Assembly: GCA_009380005.1 (NCBI GenBank)
Contig: WHSQ01000001.1
Span: 62,001-126,000 of the forward strand
Reading direction: 5' to 3'
DNA: 64,000 nt
From: Actinomycetota bacterium
Lineage (GTDB): Bacteria; Actinomycetota; CADDZG01; WHSQ01
Each line of letters opens with the position of its first letter. The first letter of the stretch is position 1. The translations under genes and the position numbers were made by a program. This document shows positions 52,426 to 63,213 of the stretch, in pieces. Below the pieces are notes generated by a model. That model was given only the letters and a program-made list of their open reading frames with translations, did no database searches and was not told the origin of the DNA.

Positions 52426-55400
52426 GTGACGACGAGCACCACCAAGCGGATCGAGCTTGACGCCGAGCAGCGGGGGATCGTGGAGCACGGGGCCGGGCCG
52501 TTGCTGGCCTACGGGGGCCCGGGCACCGGCAAGACCACCGTGCTCGAGGAGCGCTTCGTCCGCCTTGCGCTGTCCGAGGGCTGTTCGCCCGACCGGATCC
52601 TGTTCCTCGTCCCGAACCGGGCCCAGAAGATCGCCCTGCAGGACCGCCTGACCCGTCGCCTTCTCTTCGACGAGGGTCTCGACGCGGTCATCGAGGTCCC
52701 CGTCTACACCTGGCACGGCTTCGCCAACCACCTCGTGTCCCGGCACTACGAAGATCTCGGCTACGGCGAGCCCCCGGTGCTGCTCACCAGTCCCGAGCAG
52801 TGGGGCGACGTGCGCGACGCGCTCGCCAACGAGAACGCCGCCAACTGGCCGCACCATCGGACGCTGCTGCACAACAGAGGGTTCGTCGACGAGGTCGTGG
52901 ACTTCTGCATCCGGGCCGAGCAACGCGCGCTCGACGAGGCCCAGCTCGAGGCCCTGGCCGTCAGCCGTCCCAAGTGGGCCGAGCTGGTCCGCTTCTTCAA
53001 GGCCCACCGCAACCGCCTCAAGGCGCGCTCGCGCATCGACTACCCGATGCTGATGCGCGAGGCGGTCGAGCTGATCGCCGACTTCGGCCACGTGCGCGAC
53101 GCCCTGCACAAGCGGTTCACCCACGTCCTCGTGGACGACGGCCAGGAGCTGGCCCTGGTGCAGCAGAGGCTGCTGTACTTCCTCAGTCCCGCCTCCGGCG
53201 AGCCGTCCACGGACCGGTCCCTGGTGGTGGCCGGCGACGCAGACTCGGCGATCGAGACCTTCCGCGGCGGCGATCCCGAGTGGACCGAGGACTTCGCCAA
53301 GGAGTTCGGCCCGCACGAGACCGTGACGTTGCAGACCTCATACCGGCTGAGCCCGGAGCTCGGGGGCCAGACCGCCACGCTGATCGAGCGCAACGGACAG
53401 CGCGACCACCGGCCGCACGACTTCGCCGGCGAGGGCCTGGTGGAGGTCCATCGGTTCGGGAGCCTGGCGGTCGAGGTCGAGTCGATCGCCCGGGCGATCC
53501 GCCTCGCGCATCTGACCGACGGAGTGGCTTACGAGGACATGGCCATCCTGCTGACGTCGCCGCGCTCGATGCTTCCGCCGCTGGAGCGGGCGCTCGACGC
53601 GCTCGAGGTGCCGTTCTCGATCAGCGCGCCGGACCGGCCGCTGGCGCGCGAACCGATCGTGCGTGCGTTCACCGACCTGGCGTCGTTCGCGTTCGCCGAC
53701 GAGCCGGATCCCGAGCAGATCGTGATGCTGCTGCGCTCGCCGCTGATCGACCTCGACGACTCGTGCGTGCGCGAGCTCGAGCGCACGGCGCGGATGTCGG
53801 GCCGCGCGTTGGCCGAAGTTCTGGACGACGTGGAGGCGGTCGCCGCGGTCCCCGGGGCCAAGGCCAAGGTCGACGAGCTCATCGAGCTGCGCGATCTACT
53901 GCGGGCCAAGAGGAACGCGCCCGCGGACGAGTCATTCTGGGTCGTGTGGGAGAAGGCCCGGCTCTGCAAGGAACTGAAGGAACAGGCCAAGTCGAGCCTT
54001 GATCACCCCGCCAACCGGGACCTCGACGCGCTGGTTGCCTTCAGCCGCTCGCTCGGACGGTTCGTCGAGAGACATGGCTTCAAGAAGGCGACCTTCGGGG
54101 ATTACCTCGAAACGATCGGGCGCGCCGACTTCGGTTCCGACCCGTGGCTCCCGCCGGAGCGGGCCGGCGGCGGCGTCAACGTGGTCAGCTTCCACGGCGC
54201 CAAGGGCAAGGAGTGGTCGGTGGTCGCGGTCGCCGGCGTCGTGCAGGGCGCGATCCCGAAGGGCCGCCGTGCCAGCGGTCTGTTCGACCCCTACTTCCTC
54301 GACGAGACCAACCCCGTCGAGCGCGTCCGCAAGAACGAGATGGAGGACCGTCGCGTCTTCTACGTCGCCGTGACCCGTGCGACCAAACGCTGCATCGTGA
54401 CCACCTCGCCCGGCCCCAGCCGCCGGGGCGAGCCGAGCCGCTTCATCGGGGAGCTGACCGGGGCCGTTCCGGAGGCCGAGAGCCAGGCCGACATGCCTCC
54501 GCTGACCTTCGCCGAGGCCGCGGCGCGCTACCGCCGCGTGCTGGCCGATCCCGAGGGGCCCCGGGCGGAACGTCTGGCCGCGCTCGCCGGCATCGCGAGG
54601 ATCAACGAGCTCGATCCCTCGTGCGATCCGGCCAAGCCGTCCGAGTGGTGGTGGCGCTGGGACTGGACCGAGGGCGCGGTCTCGATCCGCGACCAGCAGA
54701 GCCAGCACGGCGACGCCGACGACCTGCCCCCGGACAAGCTCCGCACCTCCTACTCGCGCATCTCGACCTACGACAACTGTGGCTTGCAGTACCTGTTGGG
54801 GGTCGTGCTCGGCCTCGACCCGGAATCGAGCCACAACATGGCGTTCGGATCCTGGGTCCACAAGATCTTCGAGGAGTGCGAGACCGGCGCCATCACCAAC
54901 CAGGACGCGGCGCTGGCTCGTTACAACGAGCTGTTCGACGAAACCGTGTTCCCCAACCGAGCCGTCGCGCGCCAGTTCCGGCGCGAGGGCGAGATCATGA
55001 TCGACCGTTACGTGCGCTACCTGAAACCGGGCCAGGCGGCGATGGCCGAGACCGGCTTCAAGGTGCACCTCGACGGCCACCGCATCACCGGGCGCATCGA
55101 CCGCGTCGACAAGATCGGCAAGAACCTGGTGATCTCCGACTACAAGACTTCCAAGTCGGCGGTGTCGTGGGAGGAGGCGCAGGAATCGCTGCAGCTCGCG
55201 ATCTATTACCTGGCGGCGACGACCGACGAGGAGCTGTCGAAGCTCGGCGAGCCCGCGTCGATGCAGCTGATCTACCCGAACGCGCCGCTGTCGCGCGGCG
55301 ACGTGCAGAAGCGCTCGCAGAAGCCGGAGGAGGCGCGCGAGGCGTTGAAGCGCCTGCCGGTGCTCGCCGAGGGCGTGCTGGCCGAGGACTTCCGGCCCAA

Positions 55401-55479
55401 CCCCGAGGCCGACTGTCGCTGGTGCAAGTTCAAGCCGCTGTGTCCGCTGTGGTCCGAGGGCAAGGAGCTGCCGGCATGA
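52426..55479 (+). CDS. adnA: AdnA-like subunit: UvrD-type motor plus RecB-type nuclease
   Basis: 1017 aa from GTG. N-terminal UvrD-type motor: Walker A GGPGTGKTT (30-38). Motif II reads LVDDGQEL, so the usual DEXQ is DDGQ with Glu replaced by Asp; motif VI RRVFYVAVTRATK is present. The C-terminal nuclease has AFGSWVHKIFE, ITGRIDRVDK and ISDYKTSKS. Iron-sulfur cysteines are in DNCGLQYLL and CRWCKFKPLC. The Asp change suggests a weak motor, consistent with the known division of labour in mycobacterial AdnAB. The stop overlaps adnB (ATGA), so the two are coupled. It resects double-strand breaks for recombination. Confidence 0.93.
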   Translation: MTTSTTKRIELDAEQRGIVEHGAGPLLAYGGPGTGKTTVLEERFVRLALSEGCSPDRILFLVPNRAQKIALQDRLTRRLLFDEGLDAVIEVPVYTWHGFANHLVSRHYEDLGYGEPPVLLTSPEQWGDVRDALANENAANWPHHRTLLHNRGFVDEVVDFCIRAEQRALDEAQLEALAVSRPKWAELVRFFKAHRNRLKARSRIDYPMLMREAVELIADFGHVRDALHKRFTHVLVDDGQELALVQQRLLYFLSPASGEPSTDRSLVVAGDADSAIETFRGGDPEWTEDFAKEFGPHETVTLQTSYRLSPELGGQTATLIERNGQRDHRPHDFAGEGLVEVHRFGSLAVEVESIARAIRLAHLTDGVAYEDMAILLTSPRSMLPPLERALDALEVPFSISAPDRPLAREPIVRAFTDLASFAFADEPDPEQIVMLLRSPLIDLDDSCVRELERTARMSGRALAEVLDDVEAVAAVPGAKAKVDELIELRDLLRAKRNAPADESFWVVWEKARLCKELKEQAKSSLDHPANRDLDALVAFSRSLGRFVERHGFKKATFGDYLETIGRADFGSDPWLPPERAGGGVNVVSFHGAKGKEWSVVAVAGVVQGAIPKGRRASGLFDPYFLDETNPVERVRKNEMEDRRVFYVAVTRATKRCIVTTSPGPSRRGEPSRFIGELTGAVPEAESQADMPPLTFAEAAARYRRVLADPEGPRAERLAALAGIARINELDPSCDPAKPSEWWWRWDWTEGAVSIRDQQSQHGDADDLPPDKLRTSYSRISTYDNCGLQYLLGVVLGLDPESSHNMAFGSWVHKIFEECETGAITNQDAALARYNELFDETVFPNRAVARQFRREGEIMIDRYVRYLKPGQAAMAETGFKVHLDGHRITGRIDRVDKIGKNLVISDYKTSKSAVSWEEAQESLQLAIYYLAATTDEELSKLGEPASMQLIYPNAPLSRGDVQKRSQKPEEAREALKRLPVLAEGVLAEDFRPNPEADCRWCKFKPLCPLWSEGKELPA

Positions 55480-58400
55480 GCGACAACCCGCGCCGCTCCG
55501 AAGCGATCCGCGCCGCGCTCAAGGGCTACGAGCCCACCGACGAGCAGTGGCGCGCCATCAGCCACGGCCTCGAGCCGCTGTACCTGATCGCCGGTGCGGG
55601 TTCGGGCAAGACCGCGGTGATGGCGGCACGCATCGCGTGGGCCCTGGAGACACAACCGTTCTCGCCCAGCCAGATCCTCGGCCTCACGTTCACCAACAAG
55701 GCCGCCGGCGAGCTGCAGGAGCGCGTCCGGCTCGCGCTCGCTGCGTTGCACGACGAGTCCGGCGAGGAAGTGACCGTCCAGACCTACAACGCGTTCGCGG
55801 CGGCGATCGTGCACGACCACGGATTGCTGGCCGGAGTGGAGCCGGAGTCCGGTCTGCTGTCCGAGGCCCAACAGTGGCAGCTCGTGCTGTCCAGCTTCGA
55901 CGACCTGCCGCCCTTCGACGTGCTGGAGGTTCGCTCGGCTTACGTCGTGGGCCAGACGCTGAACCTGGCGAGCTCGATCGCCGATCACATGGTGGGCGTC
56001 GCCGACATCGAAGCCGCCGCCGACCGCATCCTGTCGATGCAGAACGTCGACGAGAAGATCGTGCAGACCGCGCACAAGCGCAAGGAGCTGTGCCGGGCCG
56101 TCGCTGCCTACATGGAGGCGAAGCAGCGCACGTCGCGCATCGACTTCGGCGATCAGATCACCAAGGCGGTCGAGGTGCTGGAGGGAAACGACGACGTGCG
56201 CGACGGCTACCGGGAGCGGTTCCCGTTCGTGCTGCTCGACGAGTACCAGGACACCAACGTGGCCCAGCGCCGGATGCTGCAGGCCCTGATCGGCCCGGCC
56301 GGCGCGGTAACAGCGGTGGGCGATGCCCGCCAAGCGATCTTCGCCTGGCGCGGCGCCACGATGTTCAACCTGATCGGCTTCCCCGAGCACTTCCCGCGCG
56401 AGGACGGGGTCCGTTACGACGCGGTGTCGCTGTCGGAGAACTTCCGCTCCGGCCGCAACATCCTCGACGTCGCCAATAGGGTCGTGGAGTCGATCGACCC
56501 CTCGCGCCGTCCCGGCGACCCGCTGCGGGCACAGCCCACCAACTCGACCGGCTCGGTCGCCGTCGGGCTCTTCGCCGACGAGCAGTCCGAGGCCGCGTGG
56601 ATCGCCGAGCAGTGTGACCGCATGCACGACGAGCCGATGGCCGAAGGGCGGGACCCGGCGAAGTGGAAGGACATGGCGATCCTCGTTCGGCGCAAGGCGG
56701 CGATGGACATGCTGCTGCAGGAGCTCGAGGCGCGACAGATCCCGGTCGAGGTCGTGGGCCTCGGCGGGTTGTTGAAGACCCCCGAGGTGACCGAGATCGT
56801 GGCGTGGTTGCGGGCCCTGGAGTCCAAGCCGGGCGCGAACCGGTGGCTCGGCCGCATCCTGATGGGTCCCCGCTGGCGCATCCACTACCGGGACATGTCG
56901 CTGCTGGCCCACTGGGCCAGCAAGCAGACTCATGACTTTCGAGTGTTGCGAGCCGGCGGGGATAAAGAGGCAGCGTTGGAGATCCAGCCCGATGAGGTGG
57001 ATTACTCGCTGGCTGAGGCTCTGAACCACCTCGACGAGATCGAGCACCTGGGGGCCGAGGCCAAGACGCGCCTGGAGGCGTTCTCCGAACGGCTGGCGTC
57101 GATCCGCAAGCGCTCCGGCGGCCCGCTGCTGGAGCTGGTGCAGACTGTGATCCGCGAGGCCGGGATCATGAGCGCGCTGGAGTCGTCGTCGAACCGGGCC
57201 GCGCCCGCGGCCCGCCAGAACATCTCCAACTTCCTCGACCAGGTCGCCTACTTCGCTCCCCTGGAGGGCGAGGCGTCGCTGCGCAGCTTCATCGCCTATC
57301 TCGATGCGGCCGAGGTCGCGGAGGAGACGCTCGAGGCGACGCAGCCCGCCGACCAGGACTCGGTCAAGCTGATGACGGTGCACTCGGCCAAGGGCCTGGA
57401 GTTCGAGTGCGTGTTCGTGCCGTCGGTGGCGTCGGGTATCAGCGAGCGCAGCGGCGAGCCGATCTACTCGATCTTCCCGAACACCCGGGTGTCGAACCCG
57501 CTGACCAGCTACGCCGAGCTGCCCTACGAGGTGCGTGAGGTCGCCGGCGACCTGCCGAAGTTCGAGGGCAAGCTGCCGGCGTTCACGAAGGCCGTGAAAG
57601 AGCGCGTGATCGAGGACGAGCGCCGGCTGTTCTACGTCGCGCTGACCCGTGCGAAGCAGCGCCTCGCCGTCACCGCGGCCCACTGGTACGGACGCGACGA
57701 CACCGCGAAGGGACCGTCGCCGTTCTGGCTCGAGCTCGCGGGGATGGTCGACGACGGCCTGGTCGAGATCGTTCGTAACGACGAGGCTCCGGAGGTCAAC
57801 CCGATGTTCGGCGCGATGGAGGGTCGTCGCGCGTGGCCGCCCGTGGCGAGGGCCGGCATTGACGACGAGCTGTTCGTCGACGGGTGGGGGAGTGCCGCCG
57901 ACGCGGTCGTCGGCGGTGAGGCGACGATCGACTCGTTGCTGGCTGAGCTGACCGACGAGGAACGCGCCGATGCCCAGGCCGCGATCGCGCAGCACGACGA
58001 CGACCTCGGCGTGATCGCCGCGGCGATGGGCCACGAGGAGCCGACCCAGCCGAAGATCCCCGAGATCCTGAGCGCGACGAGCTACGTGCAGGTGCTCAAA
58101 GGCGAGATGTCAGCGTGGGACCTCTCACGTCCCCTGCCGCGCCGTCCGACGAGCGCGGCGAGGCTCGGTACCGAGGTGCATCGCATCATCGAGGAGCGCA
58201 GCCGCGGCATGTCGACATTCCCCGAGGAGACGGAGCTCGACGAGCCGAGCGAGGTCTCGGAGCCGAGCCGGAGCCGCATGGCTCAGATGCTCGCCAAGTG
58301 GAAAGAGGAGTACGGCGAGCGCACGATCGCAACGCTCCCGAGCGGCGAGCCGATGCTGGAGCTGCCCTTCACGCTGAAGAAGGACGGCAAGATCATCCGC

Positions 58401-58610
58401 GGCCGGATAGACGGCGTGTACGAGACCGAAGACGGGGGCCTAGAGATAGTCGACTTCAAAACCGGCAAACGCTTCACGCCCACCGAAGAAGCCGACCAAC
58501 TCACTCTTTACCGAGAGGCTCTGGACGCTATCGGCCTCGCTCCGACGTCCGCGACCTTGACGTACGCCTTCTTGAGTGCGGGACGTGATCCCGCCTCCGC
58601 CGCCGAGTAG
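55476..58610 (+). CDS. adnB: AdnB-like subunit: UvrD-type motor plus RecB-type nuclease
   Basis: 1044 aa. Motor: Walker A AGAGSGKT (39-46), motif Ia TFTNKAAGELQERV, motif II VLLDEYQDTN with intact DEYQ, motif III GDARQAIFAWRGA, motif IV/V SVKLMTVHSAKGLEFE, motif VI RRLFYVALTRAKQ; this should be the driving motor. The C-terminal nuclease has ARLGTEVHRIIEE, GRIDGVYE and EIVDFKTGK. The iron-sulfur cysteines seen in the partner are missing here (position corresponding to the first Cys reads SATSYVQVL, and no CxxC follows). An antisense frame of 920 codons across it is a shadow. Start fixed by the ATGA overlap with adnA. Confidence 0.94.
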   Translation: MSDNPRRSEAIRAALKGYEPTDEQWRAISHGLEPLYLIAGAGSGKTAVMAARIAWALETQPFSPSQILGLTFTNKAAGELQERVRLALAALHDESGEEVTVQTYNAFAAAIVHDHGLLAGVEPESGLLSEAQQWQLVLSSFDDLPPFDVLEVRSAYVVGQTLNLASSIADHMVGVADIEAAADRILSMQNVDEKIVQTAHKRKELCRAVAAYMEAKQRTSRIDFGDQITKAVEVLEGNDDVRDGYRERFPFVLLDEYQDTNVAQRRMLQALIGPAGAVTAVGDARQAIFAWRGATMFNLIGFPEHFPREDGVRYDAVSLSENFRSGRNILDVANRVVESIDPSRRPGDPLRAQPTNSTGSVAVGLFADEQSEAAWIAEQCDRMHDEPMAEGRDPAKWKDMAILVRRKAAMDMLLQELEARQIPVEVVGLGGLLKTPEVTEIVAWLRALESKPGANRWLGRILMGPRWRIHYRDMSLLAHWASKQTHDFRVLRAGGDKEAALEIQPDEVDYSLAEALNHLDEIEHLGAEAKTRLEAFSERLASIRKRSGGPLLELVQTVIREAGIMSALESSSNRAAPAARQNISNFLDQVAYFAPLEGEASLRSFIAYLDAAEVAEETLEATQPADQDSVKLMTVHSAKGLEFECVFVPSVASGISERSGEPIYSIFPNTRVSNPLTSYAELPYEVREVAGDLPKFEGKLPAFTKAVKERVIEDERRLFYVALTRAKQRLAVTAAHWYGRDDTAKGPSPFWLELAGMVDDGLVEIVRNDEAPEVNPMFGAMEGRRAWPPVARAGIDDELFVDGWGSAADAVVGGEATIDSLLAELTDEERADAQAAIAQHDDDLGVIAAAMGHEEPTQPKIPEILSATSYVQVLKGEMSAWDLSRPLPRRPTSAARLGTEVHRIIEERSRGMSTFPEETELDEPSEVSEPSRSRMAQMLAKWKEEYGERTIATLPSGEPMLELPFTLKKDGKIIRGRIDGVYETEDGGLEIVDFKTGKRFTPTEEADQLTLYREALDAIGLAPTSATLTYAFLSAGRDPASAAE

Positions 58611-58650: not shown

Positions 58651-58687
58651 GTTGACAACTACCAACAGCCTGTTGGAGGATGTCAAC
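58651..58687 (+). promoter_or_regulatory. Nested perfect palindrome abutting the start of a TA-like module
   Basis: Outer arms GTTGACA (58651-58657) and TGTCAAC (58681-58687); inner arms CCAACA (58662-58667) and TGTTGG (58671-58676); 4-base spacers on each side and a 3-base centre. The Shine-Dalgarno GGAGGA (58675-58680) overlaps the inner right arm and the spacer, and ATG starts at 58688. The site could be a dimer operator or an RNA hairpin that hides the ribosome site. Confidence 0.75.
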
Positions 58688-58930
58688 ATGCCCCGTAGGA
58701 GGCATCCGAGGGGGGAGATCGAAGGAGCACTGGCATATGCCGAGGAGAAGGGTTGGAGCGTGAAGCCGACGAGCGCGGGCCATCGCTGGGGTGTCATGCG
58801 CTGTAGCGAGCACAGTCGAGAAGGGTGTCAGGTCTCGATCTGGTCTACGCCGCGCAACACAGGCAACCACGCTGCTGCCCTGCGCCGGGCCGTTGATCGG
58901 TGCCCTCATCAGGAGGCGTTTGATGAGTAG
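58688..58930 (+). CDS. HicA-like putative toxin of a two-gene module
   Basis: 80 aa. The opening RRRHPRGEIEGALAYAEEKGW, then AGHRWGVMRCSEHSREGCQVSIW and NTGNHAAALRRAVDRC, resembles the HicA dsRBD-like fold: helix, strand with a conserved His (AGHRWG), strand, helix. HicA toxins are mRNA interferases that use such a His. Homology is by pattern only; sequence identity to classical HicA is low. The stop overlaps the next ATG by 8 bp, as in hicA-hicB operons. It starts at the end of a nested palindrome. This small-protein pair appears in many actinobacterial genomes in my memory, without an assigned role. Confidence 0.65.
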   Translation: MPRRRHPRGEIEGALAYAEEKGWSVKPTSAGHRWGVMRCSEHSREGCQVSIWSTPRNTGNHAAALRRAVDRCPHQEAFDE

Positions 58931-59477
58931 CTACAACTTCACATTGATCGTCGAGGGAGCCGACCTCCAGGCCGAAGATGCTCAGGACGCCTTGTTCGGG
59001 GCGGGGTGTGATGACGCGACTTTCGGTGCCGTCGACGGGATCCAGTACGCGGAGTTCGATCGGGAAGCAGGCTCCTACGGCCAGGCGCTGACGAGCGCGA
59101 TCGCTGCGATCGAAAGTGCCATCAAGGGCGCCCGTGTACTTCATGTCGAGCCGGACGAGTTGGTCACCATCTCGGAGATCGCTGAGCGAGTAGACCGAAC
59201 TCGAGAGAGTGTCCGGCTCTTGATCTCAGGAGAAAGGGGACCCGGCGACTTCCCCGCACCCGCCTCACATGTTCGTACACGGAATCGTTTGTGGCGCTGG
59301 CCAGATGTACAACGCTGGTTCGTGACGCGCTACGAGGACGAGTTCGGCGCTCGGCTCGTAGAGCCCAATGAAGATCCTCGGATCACAGCGATCTTGAACG
59401 CCCTTCTCCAGCGTCGCCGATACGAAAGTGAGGTGGACCAAGCGGAACGAAGTCGGCTTGAGGAGGCTCTGGGCTGA
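58923..59477 (+). CDS. HicB-like putative antitoxin with HTH domain
   Basis: 184 aa from ATG at 58923 within the 3' end of the HicA-like gene. Residues 1-78 (SYNFTLIVEGADLQAEDAQD and DALFGAGCDDATFGAVDG) could form the HicB partial RNase-H fold that binds toxin. The middle has VTISEIAERVDRTRESVRLLIS and GERGPGDFPAPASH, a helix-turn-helix followed by a wing-like segment with the typical WRWPDVQRWF of excisionase/MerR-like DNA-binding modules. The C-terminal helix is charged. It fits an autoregulating antitoxin acting on the palindrome upstream (inference). Confidence 0.65.
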   Translation: MSSYNFTLIVEGADLQAEDAQDALFGAGCDDATFGAVDGIQYAEFDREAGSYGQALTSAIAAIESAIKGARVLHVEPDELVTISEIAERVDRTRESVRLLISGERGPGDFPAPASHVRTRNRLWRWPDVQRWFVTRYEDEFGARLVEPNEDPRITAILNALLQRRRYESEVDQAERSRLEEALG

Positions 59478-61756: not shown

Positions 61757-62083
61757 TTAGGAGTTCGGTCCGACCTCTCCCACAATCTCGATACGCGCAC
61801 CCAGTGCGTTGGCAAGAGCGGCAACGGTCTTGAGCTCCGGATTGGCGGCAGCTGTAAAGAGACGACGGACGCTGGCCGGATCCTTCCCGATCAGGCGCGC
61901 AAGATCTGCCTTTGTGTAACCGGCTTCCTCGCGGAGATGGTCAAGAGTTCTGATGATTTGATCTACCTGCTGAATTTCAATCCGGGCCCGCTCATACTCC
62001 GCCCGAAAGGCGGGGTCTTCAAGTCGGCGTGCACGACGCTCCTTGTGGCGACTCCCCACCCGATGTGTACTCGTCTTAGGCAC
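61757..62083 (-). CDS. XRE-family HTH protein, HigA-like antitoxin
   Basis: 108 aa from GTG at 62083; AAGGAG about nine bases upstream supports it over the TTG at 62104. The N-terminus is basic (PKTSTHRVGSRHKERRARRL), then a coiled helix DPAFRAEYERARIEIQQ and an HTH: EEAGYTKADLARLIGKDPAS followed by VRRLFTAAANPELKTVAALANALG. It resembles HigA or phage-repressor-type antitoxins. Transcribed away from the RelE/HigB-like toxin at 62.2 kb with 159 bp between the starts. Confidence 0.75.
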   Translation of the reverse strand: MPKTSTHRVGSRHKERRARRLEDPAFRAEYERARIEIQQVDQIIRTLDHLREEAGYTKADLARLIGKDPASVRRLFTAAANPELKTVAALANALGARIEIVGEVGPNS

Positions 62084-62100
62084 CGGACTGACTCCTTGAC

Positions 62101-62167
62101 ACAACCAGTACGCTCGCGCGGCGTGCGCAGCACGCTCCCCCGAAGGGCGTGCGTGCGTACTGGTTGT
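62101..62167. promoter_or_regulatory. 13-bp inverted repeat in the divergent TA promoter region
   Basis: ACAACCAGTACGC (62101-62113) and GCGTACTGGTTGT (62155-62167) are perfect reverse complements 41 bp apart. The inner sequence continues the match imperfectly. The arrangement suits binding by a protein that loops DNA or a long RNA stem in the antitoxin leader. Confidence 0.6.
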
Positions 62168-62242: not shown

Positions 62243-62659
62243 GTGAATTGGGATATTGCCTACTTCGTGGATCAGCAGGGGAATGTGCCGGCTGAGAGCT
62301 TCCTTGAGAACTGCCCTATGTCCGTCGAGGCGCATCTGATAGCCGTCTTGGACGCCGTAGCTGAGGCGCCACCACCGCAGTTTTCAGGCGGAGGCAAGTG
62401 GGAGGCGATGCACGGCGACATGAAGGGCTATTACGAGGTCCGAGCGACGGGTCCCGGCCGTGAGCAATTCCGGCTGTTCTGTCTGCTCGAAAACGCTGAC
62501 GCTAAGGAGCTTCAACGTCGAGGCTTGGAAGGACCGGCGATTGTGGTGCTGACCGGGATGCGAAAGCCCCATCGTCAGATCTTTGATCAGCGTGACTATG
62601 CGGGCGTGCATCGACTCGGGGGTGAGCACAAACGCAACGTACCTCGCCGTGTTACGTAG
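62243..62659 (+). CDS. RelE/HigB-like toxin of the phage-derived Gp49 type
   Basis: 138 aa from GTG with AAGGAG six bases upstream. It shows NWDIAYFVDQQGNVPAESFL, the start of HigB/Gp49 proteins, then FSGGGKWEAMHGDMKGYYEV, REQFRLFCLLE and a C-terminal RKPHRQIFDQRD; conserved basic and aromatic residues at these places are used for ribosome-dependent mRNA cleavage. The orientation is opposite to the XRE gene, unlike the usual operonic higBA. The C-terminal 25 residues (AGVHRLGGEHKRNVPRRVT) are basic. Confidence 0.75.
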   Translation: MNWDIAYFVDQQGNVPAESFLENCPMSVEAHLIAVLDAVAEAPPPQFSGGGKWEAMHGDMKGYYEVRATGPGREQFRLFCLLENADAKELQRRGLEGPAIVVLTGMRKPHRQIFDQRDYAGVHRLGGEHKRNVPRRVT

Positions 62660-62693: not shown

Positions 62694-62969
62694 TCAGCTT
62701 GCTCGGACGTAGCTCCGGAGCGCTTCACGGATGACCTCGGAGACGCTTACGCCGTCCCTTGAAGCCCGCAGGAGTAGTTTCTTCTTGAGCTCCGGGTCAA
62801 GCCGAACCGATTCGACCGATGCGGGCCCTGACCCCATAGCGGGCCGTCCGCTCCGCCGGCGCTTGATGTCATCGACGTCGTAGCCTCGCTCGGCTTCGTC
62901 TGCCAACTTCTCGACGATCTCGTCCGTGATGGCGCTCCCGTCGTTCAACTTGCCGTGATCTCTTGGCAT
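62694..62969 (-). CDS. Ribbon-helix-helix (CopG-like) antitoxin
   Basis: 91 aa. The C-terminal 40 residues, VRLDPELKKKLLLRASRDG then VSVSEVIREALRSYV, have the ribbon-helix-helix pattern. The N-terminal part (SAITDEIVEKLADEAERGYDVDDI) is a toxin-binding arm. ATG lies one base after the TGA of the upstream toxin gene, so the order is toxin then antitoxin in one operon. Confidence 0.82.
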   Translation of the reverse strand: MPRDHGKLNDGSAITDEIVEKLADEAERGYDVDDIKRRRSGRPAMGSGPASVESVRLDPELKKKLLLRASRDGVSVSEVIREALRSYVRAS

Positions 62970-62970
62970 C

Positions 62971-63213
62971 TCACTCGCTCCCCGGCATCAGACCTCGGTA
63001 TTTCGGTCGCATCTTCATCGGGTGGATCACGGCGGCCCCTTGTGGTCTGTCCAGGACCACCAACTCCAGGAGATTCCCGGCTCGGTCGGGTCCGAGCACG
63101 AGATACCGACTGGATCCTCCGCCACCTCTTCGATCACCCGCGCGTTCTCGATGCAGTGCTGGATGTCCTCTTCGGCGATGCCCTTGCCGACGGCTCGACG
63201 GGAGGATCTCCAC
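62971..63213 (-). pseudogene. Toxin gene of an RHH-type TA pair with two compensating frameshifts
   Basis: Read from the GTG at 63213, residues 1-11 (MEILPSSRRQG) and the last about 45 residues (SRYLVLGPDRAGN, then MKMRPKYRGLMPGSE) look like the toxin family that partners RHH antitoxins. Between them the frame gives only Arg/Gly/His-rich noise. The other frame there reads IAEEDIQHCIENARVIEEVA, which is exactly what the family needs. So one extra base near 63180 and one missing base near 63111-63116 put the middle (about 23 codons) out of frame. A repaired product would be about 80 aa and complete. Sequencing error is an alternative. Confidence 0.65.

Follow-up and report, generated by a model that had tools for sequence, protein, structure and literature searches.

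The short overlapping genes at positions 58651-59477 of the window (the whole stretch of DNA analysed here, 64,000 nucleotides) were described in an initial annotation as a possible new HicAB-like toxin-antitoxin module introduced by a nested perfect palindrome. The locus therefore raises the questions of whether the pair is a toxin-antitoxin module, whether it belongs to hicAB, and whether the palindrome acts as an operator in DNA or as a hairpin in mRNA.

Genes and palindrome

The features of the locus are given below with their coordinates in the window.

58651-58687 (+): promoter-operator (the 'nested palindrome'), two 16-bp sites with centres 21 bp apart, assigned from the sequence and its relatives
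58651-58666 (+): distal operator site GTTGACAACTACCAAC, with a -35-like TTGACA at 58652-58657; 2 of 14 mismatches to GTTGACA-N2-TGTCAAC
58672-58687 (+): proximal operator site GTTGGAGGATGTCAAC, directly adjoining the start codon; 1 mismatch to GTTGTA-N3-TGTCAAC
58676-58681 (+): position of the -10 box, which reads GAGGAT in the window; spacing of 18 bp to the -35 and of 6 nt to the ATG (leaderless geometry)
58688-58930 (+): gene A, encoding an 80-aa HicA-like protein that is a predicted toxin (profile matches, PDC-M06A and phrog_5923)
58923-59477 (+): gene B, 184-aa predicted antitoxin/repressor (profile matches, PDC-M06B and phrog_2620, and model), with a ferredoxin-like domain at about residues 1-77, an AlpA/MerR-like HTH at about 78-136, and then C-terminal helices (parts assigned from the model)
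58923-58930 (+): overlap of A and B, 8 bp

These coordinates confirm the original description of an 80-aa gene overlapping a 184-aa gene by 8 bp, and the start codons of both genes are consistent with the family alignments. The overlap likely leads to translational coupling. The 37-bp palindrome, GTTGACA-ACTA-CCAACA-GCC-TGTTGG-AGGA-TGTCAAC, has 7-bp outer and 6-bp inner arms around a common centre, and its 18-nt arms are 83% complementary. It abuts the ATG of gene A (end 58687, start 58688) and contains GGAGG at 58675-58679, which bears out the report of a two-level perfect palindrome ending at the start codon and covering the ribosome site.

Two adjacent UvrD-type helicases (52426-58610), AdnAB-like and each with a PD-(D/E)XK nuclease domain, end 40 bp before the palindrome. 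A nearby toxin-antitoxin-like set pairs an Xre-type HTH protein (61757-62104, -) with a 138-aa protein (62243-62659, +), HigB/Gp49-like by eye but lacking a Pfam match. Another such set close by comprises an RHH protein (62694-62969, -) beside an 80-aa ORF (62971-63213, -).

Family membership, distribution, and pairing

The adjacent proteins A and B were matched by PADLOC to PDC-M06A (E 8.5e-27) and PDC-M06B (E 2.4e-28), respectively, and the pair is thereby a member of PDC-M06; searches of Pfam and NCBIfam were uninformative for both. PDC-M06 is not named in the literature searched, and no described function, fold, operator, or mechanism was found there. The pair is present on SSU5-type enterobacterial phage-plasmids (including Cyrano of E. 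coli LF82), on cyanobacterial plasmids, and in genomes whose labels include actinobacteria, proteobacteria, planctomycetes, and Chloroflexi, among others. Within the phylum of the window its distribution is patchy, with gene A in 12 of 297 genomes.

A survey of the neighbours of homologues found pairs, not singles, in most loci: of the 80 genome and 57 viral loci recovered with B, most have A immediately upstream, and each of the 15 viral loci recovered with A contains B. In 60 of 101 distinct loci the two genes either overlap or are no more than 30 nt apart, and the pairwise distances of A and B are correlated (r 0.775; largest value in 1000 permutations, 0.155). The locus thus has the type II operon trait of short, co-directional genes that overlap or adjoin, co-occur, and co-evolve. 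The proposal of a two-gene toxin-antitoxin-like module with the gene order and overlap of hicAB was borne out by this pairing and correlated evolution of the homologues.

Among loci recovered by searches seeded mainly with B, and with some of the broken A genes coming from metagenome assemblies, A is split by a stop codon or frameshift beside an intact B in 7 loci (L037, L044, L048, L097, L102, L111, and L146) and is a remnant or undetected in about 10 more. The operator is retained in several of these decayed-A loci. The decay of A beside a kept B resembles the loss of a costly toxin with its antitoxin kept, and may be taken as supporting evidence for a toxin-antitoxin function.

Predicted folds of the two proteins

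Protein A is predicted to adopt an alpha-beta-beta-beta-alpha arrangement (pLDDT 82), which is the topology of HicA (PMC10865869). Its description as HicA-like holds for this predicted topology, but no sequence test links A to HicA. The HicA_toxin family (PF07927) did not match A of the window and was absent from the 25 families listed for 77 A relatives, hhalign of the A family against 14 HicA proteins returned a non-significant probability of 11%, and a PDB sequence search with A gave chance-level matches only. Foldseek with the A model found no match at E <= 0.001, HicA3 (4p78) being at rank 29 (E 1.5, TM 0.35/0.39). In the hhalign alignment with 11% probability, Gly22 and His32 of A stand opposite the conserved Gly and His of HicA, where the His belongs to a GxH motif around the second strand. 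His6, His32, and Thr54 are invariant in the A family (His32 in 77 aligned proteins), and Cys39, His61, and Cys72 are nearly so. Weak matches of 26 A proteins to the RuBisCO small chain were taken as chance.

Distant A-like proteins were seen in L032 (1501-1716) and L034 (reverse strand, 1465-1719); they keep an N-terminal HP motif and a Cys, without His32. In L032 the distant A-like protein is followed by a short HTH-less protein resembling the first domain of B by eye.

The model of B (pLDDT 95) consists of a beta-alpha-beta-beta-alpha-beta domain, an HTH, and C-terminal helices. The best Foldseek matches were to proteins with ferredoxin-like folds, among them S6, PII, and ACT (highest probability 0.99, E 0.014), with no match at E <= 0.001. 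The HTH assigned to the 184-aa protein was upheld by the model and by weak AlpA matches (PDB 8c3t, E 0.014; Phage_AlpA weakly in 6 of 101 members), and B accordingly carries the C-terminal HTH that, like an RHH, is a trait of HicB-type proteins. The N-terminal domain, which had been called HicB-like, is modelled as ferredoxin-like with a strand/helix order unlike that of HicB, and that part of the description was not confirmed. No HicB families were listed for B of the window or its relatives, and by predicted fold B is not HicB.

These results bear on the possibility that A and B are genuine but highly diverged members of the HicA and HicB families. Gene order, overlap, the topology of A, and the alignment of Gly22 and His32 with conserved HicA residues all favour it, but the predicted fold of B and the lack of HicA_toxin among the families listed for the 77 A proteins make it unlikely. 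The best reading is a toxin that is convergent with, or very remotely related to, HicA, together with an antitoxin unrelated to HicB.

Operator and promoter geometry

Upstream regions were scored for 101 distinct loci. With at most 3 of 14 mismatches allowed, GTTGACA-N2-TGTCAAC was found upstream of 90 of the 101 homologous pairs, against a shuffling expectation of 0.55; as the loci are homologous and hence non-independent, fewer separate events underlie such operator counts than the figures suggest. Recurrence of its sequence before homologues puts the palindrome far beyond chance. Symmetric changes in both arms, namely GTTTACA/TGTAAAC (L174), CTTGACA/TGTCAAG (L082), and GTGGACA/TGTCCAC (L101), are of the kind expected if a symmetric dimer binds here.

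In the single-operator form (71 loci), the TTGACA of the operator is in the -35 place, and a -10 box (at least 4 of 6 positions) lies 16-18 bp downstream of it in 63% of these loci, compared with 6% at shifted control positions. The promoter-embedded form, found in the window and about 20 relatives that are mostly actinobacterial and environmental, has a second site, GTTGTA-N3-TGTCAAC, located 0-9 nt before the start codon and over the -10. Just before the start codon this sequence is present in 14 exact copies among relatives, with about 0 expected. The TANNNT of the proximal site in relatives is the -10 box; 6 nt and a further small gap separate it from the start, and leaderless actinobacterial promoters have such a geometry. 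Where the distal site is present, the two sites are 19-21 bp apart, so that the -35/-10 distance stays at 16-18 bp.

The distal site of the window has the same position in relatives L037, L039, L046, and L049. The -10 place of the window overlaps the Shine-Dalgarno-like GGAGG; TANNNT is found there in 17 of 21 aligned sequences. The weak GAGGAT of the window retains two of its fixed bases, A in the second position and T at the end, and the Shine-Dalgarno-like motif has arisen in place of the full box. Because this -10 is degenerate, a simple sigma-70 scan of the window found no consensus promoter.

The suggestion that the palindrome is an operator of the HTH protein is supported by the conserved motif and its placement on the promoter in homologues, and on this sequence evidence the locus has the palindromic operator on its own promoter that is typical of type II toxin-antitoxin operons. 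The most fitting reading of the 'nested palindrome' is a pair of operator sites superimposed on a promoter. More broadly, it appears to be a promoter-operator conserved across bacterial phyla and phage-plasmids, most likely serving shut-off by B. Toxin-antitoxin operators normally diverge fast, and such conservation across phyla is unusual for these loci. In the promoter-embedded form the operator is merged with a leaderless-type promoter, and a single bound complex would block the -35, the -10, and the start codon together.

The alternative first offered, that the palindrome folds in mRNA and hides the ribosome site of A, was weakened by the same comparison. The RNA of the window does fold (-17.6 kcal/mol, z -4.4) with GGAGG within the stem, and transcription running on from the helicase genes upstream could yield such an mRNA. 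However, the operator sits on the promoter in most homologues and is therefore outside the transcript, as in the single-operator loci with their site at the -35. Five relatives (L044, L045, L050, L051, and L055) have lost the distal site, which breaks the outer stem, and keep the proximal DNA site exact or nearly so, and the Shine-Dalgarno-like motif is found at this place in the window only, among 21 aligned sequences. With the hairpin not conserved, it was set aside as the main function and is judged very unlikely in that role. The position of the operator over the -35 and -10 in relatives points to transcriptional autorepression rather than to hiding of the ribosome site; in this genome, a hairpin damping read-through from the helicase genes is possible.

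Function of the pair and proposed mechanism

The pair might not be a toxin-antitoxin pair: B could be a regulator from a phage or plasmid, akin to an excisionase or repressor, with A as a small partner protein such as an anti-repressor or RNA-binding cofactor. Annotation points this way, since PHROGs labels the B family 'excisionase and transcriptional regulator' and the SSU5 record annotates the B homologue as AlpA-like, and A has no significant link to any known toxin. We nevertheless find this improbable, because the operator sits on the promoter of the pair itself, A decays where B stays, and contigs from bacterial genomes of numerous phyla, taken irrespective of phage context, hold many copies. 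A genome-wide search also revealed no convincing second regulated site. The 3.8-Mb genome has a single exact copy of the outer arms at this spacing, and with 2 mismatches allowed there were 3 other matches, all unrelated, compared with 2 for a reversed control pattern.

A and B are instead probably an autoregulated type II toxin-antitoxin module, one that would work in a hicAB-like manner and is at most a putative hicAB member. In the mechanism proposed, A would be a small HicA-like toxin that probably binds RNA or acts on it as an enzyme, with the invariant His32 and His6 at its core. B would neutralise A via its ferredoxin-like domain and bind the operator via its AlpA/MerR-like HTH. Dimers of B, probably with A, would occupy the two 16-bp sites, which are two helical turns apart and fall on the -35 and -10 of the promoter driving A and B, the second touching the start codon, so that RNA polymerase would be shut out. 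If B were lost or titrated, by plasmid loss or phage infection, repression and neutralisation would end together. The pairing, its conservation, the operator and the way it fits promoter geometry, and the decay of A with B kept are read from the sequences themselves, and we infer the toxicity, the RNA target, the complex, the DNA binding, and the biological trigger.

A mainly anti-phage use of the pair by abortive infection, in which infection frees A and A stops the cell, is compatible with the toxin-antitoxin mechanism and would name its purpose. The pair carries a PADLOC candidate label, PDC systems being unpublished and mostly unvalidated candidates (PMC11811056, PMC12988326), and its patchy occurrence also agrees with such a use. 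Viral contigs L176 (3965-4414), L178 (4001-4297), and L180 (3992-4246) encode the ferredoxin-like domain of B but lack both the HTH and an adjacent A, the pattern that counter-defence antitoxins would show; these are possibly phage-borne solo antitoxins. On the other hand, many copies are on phage-plasmids or plasmids, for which element maintenance or superinfection exclusion fits equally, and no published test was found in the literature searched. We regard the anti-phage use as plausible, if short of probable.

A broader proposal is put forward tentatively. The family would be unrelated to HicAB and would combine a new small toxin (invariant His6, His32, and Thr54; nearly invariant His61, Cys39, and Cys72), a ferredoxin-like antitoxin, and one operator from actinobacteria to enterobacterial phage-plasmids, with phages countering by means of stand-alone HTH-less antitoxin domains. 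A catalogued candidate defence system would gain a concrete mechanism, with named toxin residues, a neutralising domain, and an exact operator, all of them predicted.

Comparison with known systems

Both proteins of the window match PDC-M06 strongly as an adjacent pair. The module is new in that its mechanism, operator, and folds are proposed here, but the pair itself was already catalogued under this name and its copy in Cyrano already annotated as HicA/HicB, by annotation only (PMC9928086). The Cyrano pair of E. coli LF82 and SSU5_055/SSU5_054 are homologues of the window pair and have the operator motif in common with it; they differ in that their only operator lies at the -35 and their genes are separated by 52-60 bp. 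The HicB label on the phage-plasmid copies (L020 and L021) is probably wrong, judging by fold. AlpA-type phage regulators resemble the HTH part of B, but B is extended by further domains at both its N and C terminus and has a partner gene. In the literature searched, HicA, antitoxin, AlpA, and ferredoxin came together only as a passing mention in a Pectobacterium pangenome paper.

The pair is comparable in layout to hicAB with an HTH-type HicB, which is class 3 of Gerdes 2024 (PMC10865869). The two share toxin-first order, overlapping or close genes, a C-terminal DNA-binding domain in the second protein, a palindromic operator, and an alpha-beta-beta-beta-alpha first protein. They differ in the N-terminal domain of the second protein, which is predicted to be ferredoxin-like in B whereas it is a partial RNase H fold in HicB, in the AlpA/MerR-like character of the HTH of B, and in the lack of detectable sequence homology between A and HicA.
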